NCBI GenBank assembly: GCA_030041095.1
Contig: JASHON010000164.1
Span: forward strand, 1-64,000
Reading direction: 5' to 3'
DNA length: 64,000 nucleotides
Source of the DNA: Terriglobia bacterium
Lineage (GTDB): Bacteria; Acidobacteriota; Terriglobia; UBA7540
Each line of letters begins with the position of its first letter. The first letter of the stretch is position 1. The position numbers and the translations under genes are program-made. The notes under the pieces are model-generated. The model was not told the origin of the DNA, did no database searches, and saw nothing but the letters and a program-made list of their open reading frames with translations. Of the stretch, positions 4,563 to 12,490 are shown in pieces.

Positions 4563-4870
4563 AGGCGGTCTTCATCTCGATTCCGCGTTCAAATGCCGGG
4601 ATTCTTCGCTTCGCTCAGAATGACCCGAGAAGGGCTCAGCGCAACAAAGTCTGGAGGCGCGCGTTTCGCGGCACGCTCGAAAGCATCGCCACGCTCGGTG
4701 AAGGCCAGTGGGCTATACAGGCTGCGGAAAAACTCGACGCCGCCGCGAACGTAGCGCCGGCATCTTGCCGGCCTCCGTTGAATTGAAGGGAGTTGCCGGC
4801 TGGAAGCCGGCGCTACGTCAACTCCCGAAAGAGTTTTTCCGCAGCCTGTATAGCGCCTCCGGCCGCCCGC
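4563..4870 (-). pseudogene. ORF6N relic interrupted by palindromic element
   Basis: The sequence at 4566-4718 together with 4849-4870 parallels the 3' part of the ORF6N relic at 967-1326. The minus strand can still be read as G-R-R-Y-S-P-L-A-F-T-E followed, after a small deletion, by V-A-M-L-S. The element at 4719-4848 is inserted in the Arg-Tyr codons. Only a short piece of the domain survives, so this is a dead copy. The 5' part of the gene is missing, replaced by the end of the large propeller gene. Confidence 0.5.
4719..4848. mobile_element. MITE-like palindromic element, copy 1 (TATA target duplication)
   Basis: The element is 130 bp with perfect 18-bp terminal inverted repeats (CAGGCTGCGGAAAAACTC). 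It is flanked by TATA at 4715-4718 and TATA at 4849-4852, which looks like a 4-bp target-site duplication. Internally it has GCCGGC hairpins (GCGCCGGCATCTTGCCGGC and GCCGGCTGGAAGCCGGC). It encodes no protein and would need a transposase in trans. Related copies lie at 12548-12678 (opposite orientation) and 14069-14171. Confidence 0.75.
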
Positions 4871-7800: not shown

Positions 7801-8172
7801 TCCTCGGGTGAACAAGGCCATGGGGCAATTTCCGGTTGCGCCGCAGGGCGGCGCCCGATTGCCAAAGGAAACAACGACGCCGTCGCCAAGGGTACCCAGC
7901 TTGACGCGCGTCGCCTCGATTTCGCTGAAGTCGCCCAAGCCGGTACCCTCTTGCAGCGCCTGGGCATTCTTTTGTGCCCAAGCTCTGATTGCTATTTCGA
8001 GCTGGGAAAGCTCGCCGGGGGTTATCGCTTCGCTGAGCGGGAATATTCTGAAGGGAATCGGGAACTTCGGAGACCTCACGCGAGCGTGAGCGGGCAGGCT
8101 GACGATAAGGAACAGTACGAGCTGGACAGCAACGCCCGAGAAGCCCGACCTTTTGCAGGATGAACGAAACAT
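4876..8172 (-). CDS. Large secreted protein, beta-propeller-like, unknown function
   Basis: This 1098-residue protein starts with a signal peptide (MFRSSCKRSGFSG then a hydrophobic stretch ending LPAHA). The ATG at 8172 is chosen because GGAGGGGAG lies directly upstream; the longer frame to 8280 adds residues without signal-peptide character. Residues about 35-300 look like two tandem modules of about 130 residues. Each has a helix like 'ITPGELSQLEIAIRAW' or 'FSPAEYGALRRLVAAN' and a Cys pair (PCGATGNC, PCGVNRNC). The remainder has recurring W-rich strands (for example 'LRWRDGGWTDVASPLP', 'LWVGPKGGVVVDW', 'HVWIWCGWIRRE', 'HLWGILKSG') resembling the two-component-regulator-type propeller. It has no membrane anchor and no operon partners. 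Not recognised as a named family. Confidence 0.6.
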   Translation of the reverse strand: MFRSSCKRSGFSGVAVQLVLFLIVSLPAHARVRSPKFPIPFRIFPLSEAITPGELSQLEIAIRAWAQKNAQALQEGTGLGDFSEIEATRVKLGTLGDGVVVSFGNRAPPCGATGNCPMALFTRGQKGYRLRIMSGGWGYAVLPSSGPVPDIAFYSNVSVGESIAASYQYDQGKFVQAPQVDCTGKNESDPTCAAENQAMETNTGVAAFSPAEYGALRRLVAANLKRRAPGRALHFPFDGAHAMNLRGINRSQLVAMTLGPCGVNRNCSISVYAHVEPGGWYWPVLSQATGWGVTGASFERGGRQVDLVIARHLSATQDELTRYAMVLPFPAAGGFPELSPGNSFLPDACEIVTPKTGRWPARWDWAALVAKPVSCLKTALPRAAQIPAADTTSVSTVVQAGGGTVWALGSGTSGLLRWRDGGWTDVASPLPSAKSWPWEEEYLRANGEVPEPSGLWVGPKGGVVVDWLDPTTQKSELFWQRGGSAKPLAVVPAAGHIETLALASFGIVAVTADAHGWRNGVPVTGQGAAIFRLSPNGELDQIYTLKTDQYLPYRTGVAGAPSFLPLSVTRDEQGHVWIWCGWIRREPNDAALAGFLVTDGKTVKYYRHIPGLPNAHLVSLDAWDHDHLVAATFGQGLYAINTTTLKASPVPEPQPGAFSFVKSVFRSGNDRYVLTFVPYVAGRMSSGAGGAVWRLRGRQWKEIAKNLPDASGAGLATADGLWLATSDFRGLWFLPASGPARRTDWRQGFPLPTANQMFQLPGGDILATDAGDLATAHSVEFRPASMLSPQRPSTAFSVVYPRSPLELDRDHHLWGILKSGVLSEWNGSRWIPHPFPPFVIASRIVSVDVDTLGREWLFPDCWLGPMGIFNPSDGRWALYRSYRIALAHSAEPVHFLHPEDDRLRPTYGPNSQIVFVGMCGAVNYFDGSSWHMWRQRLLPAPLGVLFFDAAGNLAFDGGPNVILPGVKPRLQGQSRPATWEWTPATHWHAVPYESHQIKSLSRYNPFAPLPPPPAGCTTTLPSSLVRDSTGRAWWVAGDTLYEGVPGHCRSILSGSSRQPFVGGRRIAGAILDPRGNVVLETAMPFSYVILRSYEYERR

Positions 8173-8353
8173 CTCCCCTCCGTCTCGGCGTAAGATTGGC
8201 GCCCGCAATCGGCGAATATACAGCCCACAGGCTGAGAATTCAACGTATGATCTGGCCTCCGCGGTTTGCGGGTTTATCATGCCCCGCTTCAGTTTCTACC
8301 TTTCACACGTCGTTTCCCGCACGCTCCACCAGCCGCTTCGTACCCCTGTATCA

Positions 8354-8415
8354 GGCCATGACTTCAGTCATGCCGCACTGCGTCATCGACGCCAACGGCT
8401 TTAGCCGCTGGCCGG
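8354..8415. repeat. REP-like palindromic unit, copy 2
   Basis: GGCCATGACTTCAGTCATGCC is followed about 25 bp later by an ACGGCTTTAGCCGCTGG palindrome, the same architecture as copy 1 at 172-230. The outermost pair of the first palindrome is less perfect than in copy 1. Confidence 0.6.
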
Positions 8416-8454
8416 CGCGACCAGTGACTAAACGCGCTGCGGGAAAAGGCCAGT

Positions 8455-8700
8455 CATGTCATGCTGAGCGAAGCGAAGCATCTCTGTATTTCCTCGGAAA
8501 CGAATGCTGGGATTCCTCGCTACGCTCTGCATGACACACGGCGCTAAGCCCTTTGTATTCAGCGAGCCGGAATCGCGCCCAGGCGCCGCGTGTCATGCCC
8601 CAGATTGGCAGCCCAAGCTGTGGACGCTCAGGATGACAGCGCCGCCCGTGTTCAACAGGCGCCAGGCATGCTTTTGGCAACTTGGGGTCAGAACAAAGTT
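8455..8700. repeat. Mosaic intergenic repeat, copy 2
   Basis: The block is a mosaic: 8455-8490 matches 12341-12376 (CATGTCATGCTGAGCG.AGC), 8523-8637 matches 2873-2986, and 8631-8699 matches 12421-12490 (GACAGCGCCGCCCGT, CATGCTTTTGGCAACTT). The three loci therefore share modules in different combinations. It is non-coding. Confidence 0.7.
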
Positions 8701-8824
8701 CGCGCCCTACCGTGCCCGCGAGAAGCGGGGCGTTAGAAAAGGAATGTGACCGGGGGAATCAAAGCCAACAGCAGGGAAGGGGCGGTTCCCGAAACCGCAG
8801 GGGCTAGCAGTAGGTTTTGGCTTG

Positions 8825-8853
8825 TGGACATATGTATAGACACGTGTTATTAT
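8825..8853 (+). promoter_or_regulatory. Promoter of the ParS/RES module with palindrome
   Basis: TGGACA (8825-8830), a 17-bp spacer and TATTAT (8848-8853) form a promoter. A perfect 8-bp palindrome ACACGTGT (8840-8847) fills the spacer next to the -10. It is a candidate operator for the HTH antitoxin encoded downstream. A Shine-Dalgarno AAGGAG lies at 8869-8874, so unlike the HigBA modules this transcript has a normal leader. Confidence 0.55.
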
Positions 8854-8884
8854 CAAAACAGATTGGGCAAGGAGATTATCTTTT

Positions 8885-9292
8885 ATGCATGCCACCGCTT
8901 CTGTGCATCATGGTCCTGCGCGACGCTCTTCAAAAGTCAGAGATGGCGTGCTGACAAACCGGCAGGCGATCCGCCGGCTTAGGACAGCGAAACTAGCCGC
9001 ATCGAGAACCACGTTCTCACGGTTGCTCAAGGTTTCGGAGAATACGATCTTCCGATGGGAAGCAGGAAAGGTGAAGCCGGACCGCCGCGCGGCGCAGACG
9101 TTGGATCATCTCGACCGAGTCTGTGACGTGCTGTCGCCATCGATGGAACCCACCGCGATAGCCAGTTGGCTTGAGAAACCCAACCACGCAATCGAAAATT
9201 TCCGTCCAATCGACCTGCTGGATTCTGAATACGGCCGGCTCAAACTAAAGCCTCTCATCGAAGAAACAGGACTGGCGGTTCAATCCATCTGA
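8885..9292 (+). CDS. ParS/MbcA-like antitoxin with HTH domain
   Basis: A 135-residue protein. Residues about 27-65 form an XRE-like HTH ('LRTAKLAASRTTFSRLLKVSENTIFRWEAG' by its key words FSRLLKVSENTIFRWE). The C-terminal part ends with 'WLEKPNHAIENFRPIDLLDSEYG', key words WLEKPN..IENFRPIDLL, which is the DUF2384/ParS toxin-binding pattern. Antitoxins of this type bind and inhibit RES-domain toxins and repress their own promoter. The gene lies 30 bp upstream of a RES-like toxin gene, the standard order. The ATG at 8885 has AAGGAG 10 nt upstream. Confidence 0.72.
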   Translation: MHATASVHHGPARRSSKVRDGVLTNRQAIRRLRTAKLAASRTTFSRLLKVSENTIFRWEAGKVKPDRRAAQTLDHLDRVCDVLSPSMEPTAIASWLEKPNHAIENFRPIDLLDSEYGRLKLKPLIEETGLAVQSI

Positions 9293-9322
9293 TGATGTCT
9301 TCACATTGCAACGGGACACCCC

Positions 9323-9823
9323 ATGCCTGTTTACAGCCTCCCCGCGTCATTATTTCCCCTCACTTTCGCAGATAACCGGCTCTACAAATCCTATCGAGAC
9401 CTGGAGCTGTACTGCGCGCTGGCTTCGGCAGGGCACTTCCGTCTTTTCCCGAAGGTCCCAGTCAATACAGCGCGCTGTGATGTGCCTCGATTCTTCGCGG
9501 CCCGGTACTTTTCAAGCGACAGTGAAACGGCGATCCGGGAGTTTGAGCACCGCTGGGCGGGTATGAAGTACCGCTTGTGGAGAGGAATGGTCGAGCTGAA
9601 CCGCTGCATTGATTTGTCGGATGAAAAGGTTACTGAAAGGCTGCGACTCCGGGCGGATTTTTTGATGGAGGCTTCCTATTTTCCGTGGCACTTCGTAACG
9701 GCGTGCGCTCTGACGGGGAATTGTGATTCAGTGTGTTATCGTTCGTTCCGTGGTGGCGGCCTGAGCTACGCGATTTTCGAACTGCCGGAAGCTTCAATCA
9801 TCGAGCCGTTTGAAGCAGTTTAG
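9323..9823 (+). CDS. RES-domain-like toxin
   Basis: A 166-residue protein that I assign to the RES (NAD+-degrading toxin) fold mainly from context plus weak motifs. 'GHFRLFPK' offers the conserved Arg, 'FFAARYFSSDSETAIREF' offers the Glu helix after the first strand, and 'SVCYRSFRGGGLSYAIFELP' offers the conserved Ser near the C-terminus. Length (150-165) fits. RES toxins deplete NAD+ and are neutralised by ParS-type antitoxins such as the one encoded upstream. Similarity to canonical members is low, so a divergent subfamily or another toxin is possible. Confidence 0.55.
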   Translation: MPVYSLPASLFPLTFADNRLYKSYRDLELYCALASAGHFRLFPKVPVNTARCDVPRFFAARYFSSDSETAIREFEHRWAGMKYRLWRGMVELNRCIDLSDEKVTERLRLRADFLMEASYFPWHFVTACALTGNCDSVCYRSFRGGGLSYAIFELPEASIIEPFEAV

Positions 9824-9866
9824 AAGCTGCTCGGTGACCTTGCTCGCCACGGTCAAAACGCGGAAA

Positions 9867-9905
9867 AGTAAGTATCCCCCCGGCAGCGCCGGGGGGATAC
9901 TTACT
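9867..9905. terminator. Perfect 18-bp stem-loop downstream of the toxin gene
   Basis: The arms AGTAAGTATCCCCCCGGC (9867-9884) and its exact complement (9888-9905) enclose the 3-nt loop AGC. It lies 44 bp after the toxin stop codon, so a terminator or mRNA-protecting role is plausible. There is no U-run, and the perfect symmetry could equally mark a small palindromic element. Confidence 0.5.
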
Positions 9906-10187
9906 GAAAAACTGTCCTGTTTGTCTCCCTTGTCCCACCGGGTTCTGTTAGGCTGTACTCGCATGCGCTCGAAGCACGTCTTTTTTAGGAACGGGTAGTG
10001 ATGAACGTTATCGAGGAGATCTTTGAAAAAGACTGGGCTCCCGCCGCTCGGCCAGGACTACCACGCCATTCGTCGTTACGTTCCGCGACGCAGGCGGAAT
10101 CCGCTCGAGCCGTCTCGAACGACCGCTTCCCCGCGGCCGCGGCTCTCAACATTAGAGCGCCGGTGGCATGTATTGTTTTTTTTGACG

Positions 10188-10430
10188 AGGAAAGCCGTTA
10201 TGTATATGAAAAACAGGCCACATAAGTTTTTGCTAACCAAAAACGAAGCCAAATTGCCGCTATATTACTGAAAAAGCTTAAGTTGCAAAGTTTGAAAGCC
10301 GTTATGTTATTGAAAAATAAGGGCACGATTTCATTAAAATCGATGGTGAAAGCAGGCGAAAGCCGTTATGTTGTTGATAGCAAAAAGGCTGGACAAATTG
10401 AAAGCCGTTATCTTGTTGAAAAATAAAAGG
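10188..10430 (+). repeat. Five AT-rich direct repeats in a 105-bp higher-order period
   Basis: Copies of GAAAGCCGTTATGTTATTGA (degenerate) have their GCCG cores at 10194, 10256, 10298, 10362 and 10404. Spacings are 62, 42, 64 and 42 nt, i.e. a roughly 105-bp unit repeated, with each unit containing two half-copies. Local AT content is far above the neighbourhood. Spacings near multiples of 21 put the copies on about the same helix face. Reading frames shift between copies and contain stops, so it is not a coding repeat. Confidence 0.7.
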
Positions 10431-10621
10431 GCATTTTGCGCCTTTTTTCGCTGTGGAGGAACCTCGTCGGATTGTGTTCTGTTAACAGGATGCGGAAAAA
10501 GTCTTTCGGCCAGTCTTACCTTCGCCCGCGTGGCCGATGACCTGGCGAAGGAGCGCGAAACCATTGAGGGAGGACACCCTGGCGTGGCATGTAATATCCT
10601 CAGTTAAGGAGTATGAGCGCT

Positions 10622-12064
10622 ATGGCTACAGTGGCAACGGAGAAAATGGAATTTCCGCTTTGGGTGGGAGGCAAAGCGGTGAAAACCGGAAAGCTTCGCA
10701 CGATCAATCTGCCCTACGACGGCGCCGCAGTGGCGGAAGTGCACGAAGCGGACGAAGCGACCTTCGGACGCGCTGTTGAGTCTGCGCAGGAAGGCTCGCG
10801 CGCGATGGCTGCTCTCACGCTTTACGAGCGCGCGTCGCTGCTCGAGAAGCTCAGGGCCTTGCTCGTGCGCGATGCGGAACCGTTTGCCCGGCTGATCGCC
10901 ATGGAGACGGGTAAGCCGATTCGTGAGGCGCGGACTGAGGTGGAGCGTGGGCAGCTTACGCTCACGGCCTCTGCGGACGCCGCGAGAAGCCTGCACGGCG
11001 AAGTAGTGCCGATGGAAGCAGCTCCTTCGGGCAAGGGGCGCTGGGCGATCACCGTGCGGGAGCCCATCGGGATTGTTGGAGCGATTACGCCGTTCAATTT
11101 TCCGCTCAATCTTGCTTTGCACAAGCTTGGGCCGGCTCTGGCTGCCGGCAACAGCGTCATTCACAAGCCGTCGGAGAACACGCCGTTAAGCGCATTGCGC
11201 CTGGCGCCGCTCGTTCAGGAAGCTGGCGCGCCTCCGGGCGCTTACAACGTCGTGCCGGGCGACGGCGAGACCGTTGGAAACTGGCTGGTGATGGACAGAC
11301 GGATTGCCATGGTCACCTTCACCGGCAGCGTTCCCGTGGGAGAACAGATCCGGGCGAAAGCGGGTATGCGGCGCATCGCTCTGGAAATGGGAAACAATTC
11401 CTCACTGATCGTCGAGCCGGACGCTGACCTTGAAGCGATTGTTCCTCGCTGCGTTACGGGCGCTTTTTCGCATTCCGGGCAGGTTTGCATCTCCGTGCAG
11501 AACGTTTTTCTCCACGAACGGATCGCCCGCGAGTTTACGGAGCAATACATCGAAAGAGCGCGGAAGCTCAAGCCGGGGCATCCACTGGAAGAGAGCACGG
11601 AGATTTCTTCGTTGATCAACGTCGAGGCCGCCAGGCGGGTTGAGAGCTGGATCGGTCAGGCCCGCGACGCGGGCAGCCGCATTCTGACCGGAGGAGTCCG
11701 CCGCCACGCAAGCATCGAGCCTACGATCATCGCGGACGCCGACCCGAGCCTCAACGTCTGTTGCAAAGAAGTTTTCGGGCCGGTTGTGGTTCTTCATCGT
11801 TACAGCAAGATCGAGGACGCCATCGCCCAGGTGAATTCGGGTGACTATGGCCTGCAGGTGGGTGTTTGCACCCGCGACCTCAGCCTTGCCTTTCGCGCCG
11901 CCAGCGCTTTGCGTTTCGGTGGCGTCATCGTAAACGACGTCCCCGCCTATCGCGTGGACCACATGCCTTATGGCGGCGTCAAGAAGAGCGGAATTGGACG
12001 CGAAGGCCCGCGCTACGCGATCGAAGAAATGACGGAGCTGAAGCTGATTTGCTGGAAAGCCTGA
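10622..12064 (+). CDS. NAD(P)+-dependent aldehyde dehydrogenase
   Basis: A 480-residue aldehyde dehydrogenase family enzyme, oxidising an aldehyde to the acid. Visible landmarks are the 'PFNFP' oxyanion Asn (about 159), 'HKPSE' (Lys182) and 'FTGS' (233-236) of the Rossmann fold, general base Glu255 in 'LEMGN', nucleophile Cys289 in 'SGQVCIS', and 'EVFGPV' near residue 380. The motif LEMGNNS differs from the usual LELGG and recalls the lactaldehyde and phosphonoformaldehyde-type subfamilies, so the substrate is uncertain. An ATG nine bases upstream (10613) is only 1 nt from the AAGGAG; the 10622 ATG has 10-nt spacing and is preferred. It is cytoplasmic. Confidence 0.85.
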   Translation: MATVATEKMEFPLWVGGKAVKTGKLRTINLPYDGAAVAEVHEADEATFGRAVESAQEGSRAMAALTLYERASLLEKLRALLVRDAEPFARLIAMETGKPIREARTEVERGQLTLTASADAARSLHGEVVPMEAAPSGKGRWAITVREPIGIVGAITPFNFPLNLALHKLGPALAAGNSVIHKPSENTPLSALRLAPLVQEAGAPPGAYNVVPGDGETVGNWLVMDRRIAMVTFTGSVPVGEQIRAKAGMRRIALEMGNNSSLIVEPDADLEAIVPRCVTGAFSHSGQVCISVQNVFLHERIAREFTEQYIERARKLKPGHPLEESTEISSLINVEAARRVESWIGQARDAGSRILTGGVRRHASIEPTIIADADPSLNVCCKEVFGPVVVLHRYSKIEDAIAQVNSGDYGLQVGVCTRDLSLAFRAASALRFGGVIVNDVPAYRVDHMPYGGVKKSGIGREGPRYAIEEMTELKLICWKA

Positions 12065-12340: not shown

Positions 12341-12490
12341 ATGTCATGCTGAGCGTAGCGAAGCATCTCGACATTTGAAAAATCAAGCAAATACAGAGAT
12401 CCTTCGTCGCCCTGGCTCCTCAGGATGACAGCGCCGCCCGTTTTCAACAAGCGCCAAGCATGCTTTTGGCAACTTGAAGCTCAGAACAAA
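12341..12490. repeat. Mosaic intergenic repeat, copy 3
   Basis: CATGTCATGCTGAGCGTAGC (12341-12360) matches 8455-8474, and 12421-12490 matches 8631-8699. The middle module shared by copies 1 and 2 is absent and replaced by a unique AT-rich linker. It is non-coding. Confidence 0.65.

Follow-up and report, generated by a model that had tools for sequence, protein, structure and literature searches.

The window—the whole 64,000-nucleotide stretch analysed here, with a GC content of roughly 55–60%—contains an AT-rich block in which a 24-nt direct repeat, found de novo, occurs five times between positions 10190 and 10423. The copies start at 10190, 10252, 10294, 10358, and 10400, i.e. at spacings of 62, 42, 64, and 42 bp, and are 67–88% identical to the first (10190). 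An initial annotation of this DNA had described five direct repeats in an AT-rich island without a conserved reading frame, and all three observations are borne out: its core coordinates equal the de novo copy starts plus 4, the block stands out from its surroundings in composition, and neither 62 nor 64 is divisible by 3. A coding reading was rejected, the box frames being shifted and the ORF tried across the first copy (10002 onwards) carrying a stop. The core GAAAGCCGTTATGTT, at up to three mismatches, has six matches in the 64-kb window, four of them inside the array (1.06 expected), and none of 100 shuffled windows reached six; the degenerate copy at 10252 falls outside this count. The features of the locus, with R1 denoting a sequence-only model built from 12 copies in the same genome (the window copy among them), are as follows:

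10172–10317, forward strand: element copy 1 (T-tract, box 1, core, boxes 2 and 3); R1 match at 10176–10317, 90.8 bits, E 2.4e-25; alignments A1 and A2
10176–10183, forward strand: T-tract with GACGAG after it, marking the element's conserved left edge; TTTTT invariant in 12/12 aligned copies
10190–10213, forward strand: box 1; de novo repeat and box matrix
10239–10250, forward strand: core AAAAACGAAGCC, between boxes 1 and 2; identical in 12/12 aligned copies
10252–10275, forward strand: box 2, degenerate, 67% identical to box 1; under the box-matrix threshold
10294–10317, forward strand: box 3, core intact; de novo repeat, box matrix, and core count
10331–10423, forward strand: element copy 2, partial (model positions 59–144); R1 30.8 bits, E 1.3e-6
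10358–10381, forward strand: box 4, core intact; de novo repeat, box matrix, and core count
10400–10423, forward strand: box 5; de novo repeat, box matrix, and core count
10613–12064, forward strand: aldehyde dehydrogenase gene (PF00171, E 1.9e-148), nearest downstream in array orientation, about 190 bp away

The partial second copy accounts for a 106-bp higher-order repeat: positions 10256–10320 and 10362–10426, two 65-nt stretches offset by 106, match at 71% identity, so that the 105-bp unit proposed earlier is real as a duplication.

Three other features of the window deserve mention in their own right. At 9867–9905, 3' of an ORF at 9323–9823, an 18-bp sequence is repeated perfectly in inverted orientation around a 3-nt loop (AGTAAGTATCCCCCCGGC...); it is terminator-like or REP-like. 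Positions 8885–9823 form a two-gene unit encoding an HTH protein with an Xre/MbcA/ParS antitoxin C-terminal domain (PF09722) and then a 166-aa protein without a Pfam match, a pair that presumably resembles Xre-RES toxin-antitoxin systems. Finally, GTCATGCnGAGCGAAGCGA, at up to two mismatches, occurs four times (4606–4624, 8458–8476, 8517–8535, and 12343–12361; 0.02 expected) and constitutes a separate dispersed repeat.

Eleven more pairs of cores at 43-bp spacing were found in the same genome (8 forward and 3 reverse, with none in the control), and these align with the window over about 145–170 bp. R1 yields 13 strong matches on 13 contigs at E 2.4e-25 or better—the window copy and 12 others, one of which (on C105) was not among the training copies—and nine weak ones (E 0.007–0.41). 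The window copy (10172–10317) scores 90.8 bits and the C105 copy similarly, against 113–124 bits for the other 11, making these two jointly the most diverged strong copies of the genome. The repeats in the window are one partly duplicated copy of a dispersed intergenic element of about 145 bp. This copy number strongly disfavours the suggestion, made in the initial annotation, of an iteron, partition, or replication locus: the iterons of a replication origin or a parS-like locus would indeed offer directly repeated sites, regularly spaced within an AT-rich block, but the 13 strong copies on 13 contigs, together with the genome's many arrays of a second box type, are scattered beside unrelated metabolic genes. 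No initiator or ParB gene was recognised by Pfam among three window-flanking proteins (two with a family, one without) and 16 proteins near other type-1 copies, and we regard such a locus as barely credible.

The element is also shared by relatives. At E ≤0.01, R1 has matches in 18 of 61 genomes, all within the same family (18/37 against 0/24 outside it). A looser box pattern (one mismatch), run over 121 genomes of the class, gave at least five matches in 15 of 23 family genomes, these 15 together having one control match; the highest counts were 96 (G002), 74 (G010), 69 (G023), and 66 (G015), and the family genera g6, g4, and g12 had 0–2. Outside the family, at least five matches were obtained in one of 98 genomes (G115, with six) and one or two in 13 more, the reversed-pattern control totalling four matches over the 121 genomes. 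The pattern recurs genome-wide and relatives have such arrays, so that the refuting condition set in the initial annotation (absence from relatives, with random spacing of any other copies) did not overturn the binding-array reading. Exact matches among named genomes fall mostly in Acidobacteria/Terriglobia records, and scattered single exact matches in unrelated taxa look like chance. Viral contigs gave seven single matches and none to the type-3 box described below; one 201-base query found no match in plasmids. As a separate observation, five of the six box matches of G115, which belongs to family f5, are near the consensus of the window's family, by transfer or through an older origin.

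All related arrays have a common box, roughly CGAAGCCnnTAnGTTnTTGAAAAnA (matrix consensus cgAAGCCgcTAnGTtatTGAAAAnAag), which is about 27 bp long, asymmetric, and approximately CGAAGCC-nn-TA-n-GTT-n-TTGAAAA-n-A. At a score of at least 6, the box matrix, which was trained on the same arrays it scored, has 228 matches in 72 array regions vs 4 in 332 kb of flanks. The arrays of G015 reach about 270 bp and contain as many as six scored boxes, of which one is inverted; their ungapped alignment shows boxes that hardly vary and several spacers whose pairwise identity drops to 20–40% at constant length, and the distance from box 3 to box 4 is 41 bp in all 20 fetched arrays. Other layouts also occur: type 2 (G002 and G015; TTTTGACgAAACGAACCGGATATGTTGTTGAAAA) has a single box, type 3 (the window's own genome; TGACCAACAAACCCAGTAAGTTGnTGAAAACA) has three boxes at 51–52 bp and a sharp left edge at TGACCAA, and the arrays of G001 are built of units of about 140 bp.

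Some further details of these layouts were noted. The type-2 sites (L210–L228) tend to have, about 40–100 bp upstream, AT-rich stretches with several TTGTATAC/TGTAnAC-like words, perhaps the sites of a second protein. The left half-box alone is repeated at steps of about 10–11 bp (AAAACGAACCC/AAAACGAACCG) in arrays of G029 and G025 (L136, L137, L141, and L142) and in L055 (G010), as if half-sites had been multiplied by single helical turns. The GTCATGCnGAGCGAAGCGA repeat of the window also adjoins the type-3 arrays L275, L279, and L288.

The proposal that the copies form a cooperative-binding array at near-whole helical turns stands in part. In the window's own genome, the window included, 8/8 spacing classes fall no more than 1.5 bp from a multiple of 10.5 (p 0.0006 by jitter); adding G015 and G011, a grouping chosen after seeing the data, gives 15/15 with a best period of 10.6. 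The alternative spacings of G015 differ by about one turn (52 or 63 bp; 105–107 or 115–117 bp), and relatives, too, have arrays. When the family is pooled, however, only 18 of 31 classes (another set had 27) come within the same 1.5-bp margin (p 0.0008), and a 12.45-bp period fits better. Phasing is thus good in these three genomes, and as a family-wide rule it was dropped.

Arrays that are conserved, oriented, intergenic, and often upstream of genes could in principle belong to a small RNA family or to a structured leader RNA with repeated loops, and in G015 box 1 and the inverted box 2—the only plausible stem—can indeed pair in 85.3% of cells. Their covariation, however, is no higher than that of shuffles, 428 of 500 of which reach it, and we therefore read the conserved unit as DNA. 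The RNAalifold consensus fold (−2.68 kcal/mol) holds no pair with changes on both sides, the window fold has a z of −1.12, and no promoter- or terminator-like site was found on the forward strand at 9800–10660; Rfam has no match in window positions 8000–12000 and only one tRNA in 11 loci. An RNA is accordingly very improbable.

The placement of arrays relative to genes was examined with gene calls from a home-made ORF score rather than from annotation. For 73 arrays (72 fetched type-1-like arrays and that of the window), the neighbours, written in array orientation, are 27 (<,>), 23 (>,>), 8 (<,<), and 7 (>,<), while 8 have no called gene on one side; the corresponding background counts, for gaps of at least 200 bp, were 10, 17, 10, and 4. 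In co-directional gaps, 23 arrays run with the genes and 8 against them (p 0.011; background 17 vs 10), and convergent genes enclose 7 of the 65 arrays that are flanked on both sides. Among 19 type-2 sites (L229 left out because it has no pattern match), 10 are (>,>), 7 (<,>), 2 (>,<), and none (<,<), i.e. 17/19 have a co-oriented downstream gene and all 10 in co-directional gaps run with the genes; a fixed promoter distance downstream of the type-2 boxes was looked for and not found. The 19 type-3 sites (L291 left out) comprise 6 (<,>), 3 (>,>), 2 (<,<), 3 (>,<), and 5 without a called gene on one side. Overall, arrays tend to point at gene starts, and the aldehyde dehydrogenase gene at 10613 is the putative target of the array in the window.

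The neighbouring genes are functionally unrelated (a Crp-type regulator, a transglycosylase, a symporter, a metal ATPase, AcrB, aldehyde dehydrogenase, aroA, a glycosyltransferase-3 family gene, a SucC-like gene, guaB, and priA), and conservation of sites at orthologous loci is mostly absent. Few proteins encoded near arrays match between genomes, and in one case an array clearly sits beside orthologous genes (L097 in G015 and L078 in G000). Boxes lie within 500 bp upstream of guaB in G015, G002, and G010, and further out in G018, across 14 loci scanned; two of 13 other loci have a box within 500 bp (counts without L258 and L259). For aroA, the array is present only at G002 among 13 loci, the other 12 having none (L239 left out). 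None of eight relatives' aldehyde dehydrogenase loci carries an array, a count that leaves out the window's own locus and three distant matches at 41–45% identity. Array positions turn over quickly and are seldom common to species.

What has been observed, then, is a set of conserved boxes at fixed spacing, dispersed between genes, restricted mainly to one family, and biased toward gene starts. We infer from these that the arrays are bound by a protein, that binding is cooperative, and that it regulates genes: dispersed arrays of protein-binding boxes, with cis-regulation of nearby genes as the likeliest use, is a reading to which we give an even chance. A putative lineage-specific DNA-binding protein would recognise the box of about 27 bp, would bind cooperatively along one face of the DNA within an array, and would thereby shape transcription from nearby promoters. 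Counting for this reading are the drift of the spacers at constant length while the boxes stay and the bias toward gene starts; counting against it are the failure of phasing in the pooled family and the copying of some arrays inside longer repeats. It also has against it that the neighbours lack a common function, that 7 of 65 arrays lie in convergent gaps, and that positions are rarely conserved. With tens of copies in a genome, next to housekeeping genes that have nothing in common and in some cases in convergent gaps, the arrays might also be sites of chromosome architecture, occupied by a nucleoid-associated or segregation protein without regulating particular genes, but the bias toward gene starts speaks against this. 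The same orientation of a few array pairs on the same contig had suggested a replication-arm polarity, a suggestion that was rejected because box orientation is mixed along single contigs (C6 and C14 of G002, C5 of G015), which likewise counts against architecture sites; these seem to us quite improbable.

The main rival is a mobile origin, in which the arrays would be non-autonomous, MITE-like dispersed repeats, copied in trans by a recombinase or transposase that binds the boxes and tolerated in gaps; we consider this a genuine possibility, if not the one we expect. It fits the coexistence of several differently laid-out subfamilies in one genome, the positions rarely common to species, the sharp left edge of type 3, and the presence of some copies inside longer duplicated blocks—three type-3 arrays (L275, L279, and L288) are about 90% identical over some 400–580 bp, so some copies move with larger repeats. 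Copies within one genome are, however, not near-identical, their boxes being kept and their spacers drifted at constant length, and neutral insertion would not lead one to expect an orientation bias toward genes. No inverted second end is apparent in type-3 loci of up to 4 kb, nor any convincing inverted partner array within about 2 kb of type-3 sites. Mu-transpos_C occurs in only 5 of 23 genomes; G000, G001, G002, G011, G015, and G024 are among those without it, and the lack of a Mu/TnsB-type domain from these genomes, G001 aside, counts against mobility. Y1_Tnp (RAYT) is found in 19 of 23, the window's own genome among them, and in neither G002 (96 box matches) nor G015 (66). The transposon-end and RAYT readings were rejected on the strength of these absences from array-rich genomes, in which a MAG completeness of 96–98% (G000, G015, and G002) leaves a small gap. 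A mobile origin and protein binding are compatible: the arrays may spread as repeats and also serve as sites.

A bolder form of the protein-binding reading, in our judgement rather improbable, is a family-specific global DNA-binding system in which one box grammar has diversified into several array types per genome with co-evolving readers, so that genera quickly come to differ in array sequence, box number, and spacing but keep the grammar. If true, this would amount to a cis-regulatory or nucleoid code that spans the genome, evolves fast, and has no bacterial precedent in the literature searched. Acidobacteria are abundant in soil and their gene control is little understood. A recurrent non-coding element with so strict a pattern, repeated tens of times in a genome, would represent either a global regulator or nucleoid system not yet discovered or a novel class of dispersed repeats, and with the box consensus its arrays are easy to annotate.

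Passages of PMC3174227 describe the genome of Candidatus Solibacter usitatus as containing numerous short repeats, most under 50–100 nt; these are likewise acidobacterial and short, and the passages give repeat counts without describing the present motif. The literature searched, including passages of PMC3174227 and PMC2864571, yielded no description of it, which, with the lack of an Rfam match, agrees with the original remark that the array matched no feature the annotator could name. REP/REPIN elements and their RAYTs, as characterised in parts of PMC3116915 and PMC2817692, are similarly short, dispersed, intergenic, and numerous, with lineage-specific subfamilies; unlike them, the arrays have direct, mostly non-palindromic boxes, and the Y1 transposase is absent from the array-rich G002 and G015. 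The palindromic unit expected of a REPIN was not seen among these direct repeats, whose consensus folds at the −2.68 kcal/mol given above.

Iterons and parS sites consist of direct repeats at fixed spacing in AT-rich DNA, an anatomy that the arrays reproduce in all three respects; the difference is that the arrays are dispersed rather than confined to one locus. The ends of Tn7 and Mu transposons carry several TnsB or MuA boxes, and the arrays resemble them in a stretch of about 145 bp that bears three asymmetric boxes at intervals and has a sharp outer edge starting with TGAC; unlike such ends, the arrays are single-sided, no partner end was seen, and Mu-transpos_C is absent from the window's own genome, G015, and G002. 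The operator or enhancer arrays of cooperative bacterial regulators comprise several direct asymmetric sites, helically constrained and mostly upstream of genes. The arrays described here differ from these in lacking a coherent regulon, in the turnover of their positions, and in a box and layout that vary by genus, and they share with them direct asymmetric sites that tend to lie upstream of genes and that, in the window's own genome, G015, and G011, stand at helical distances.
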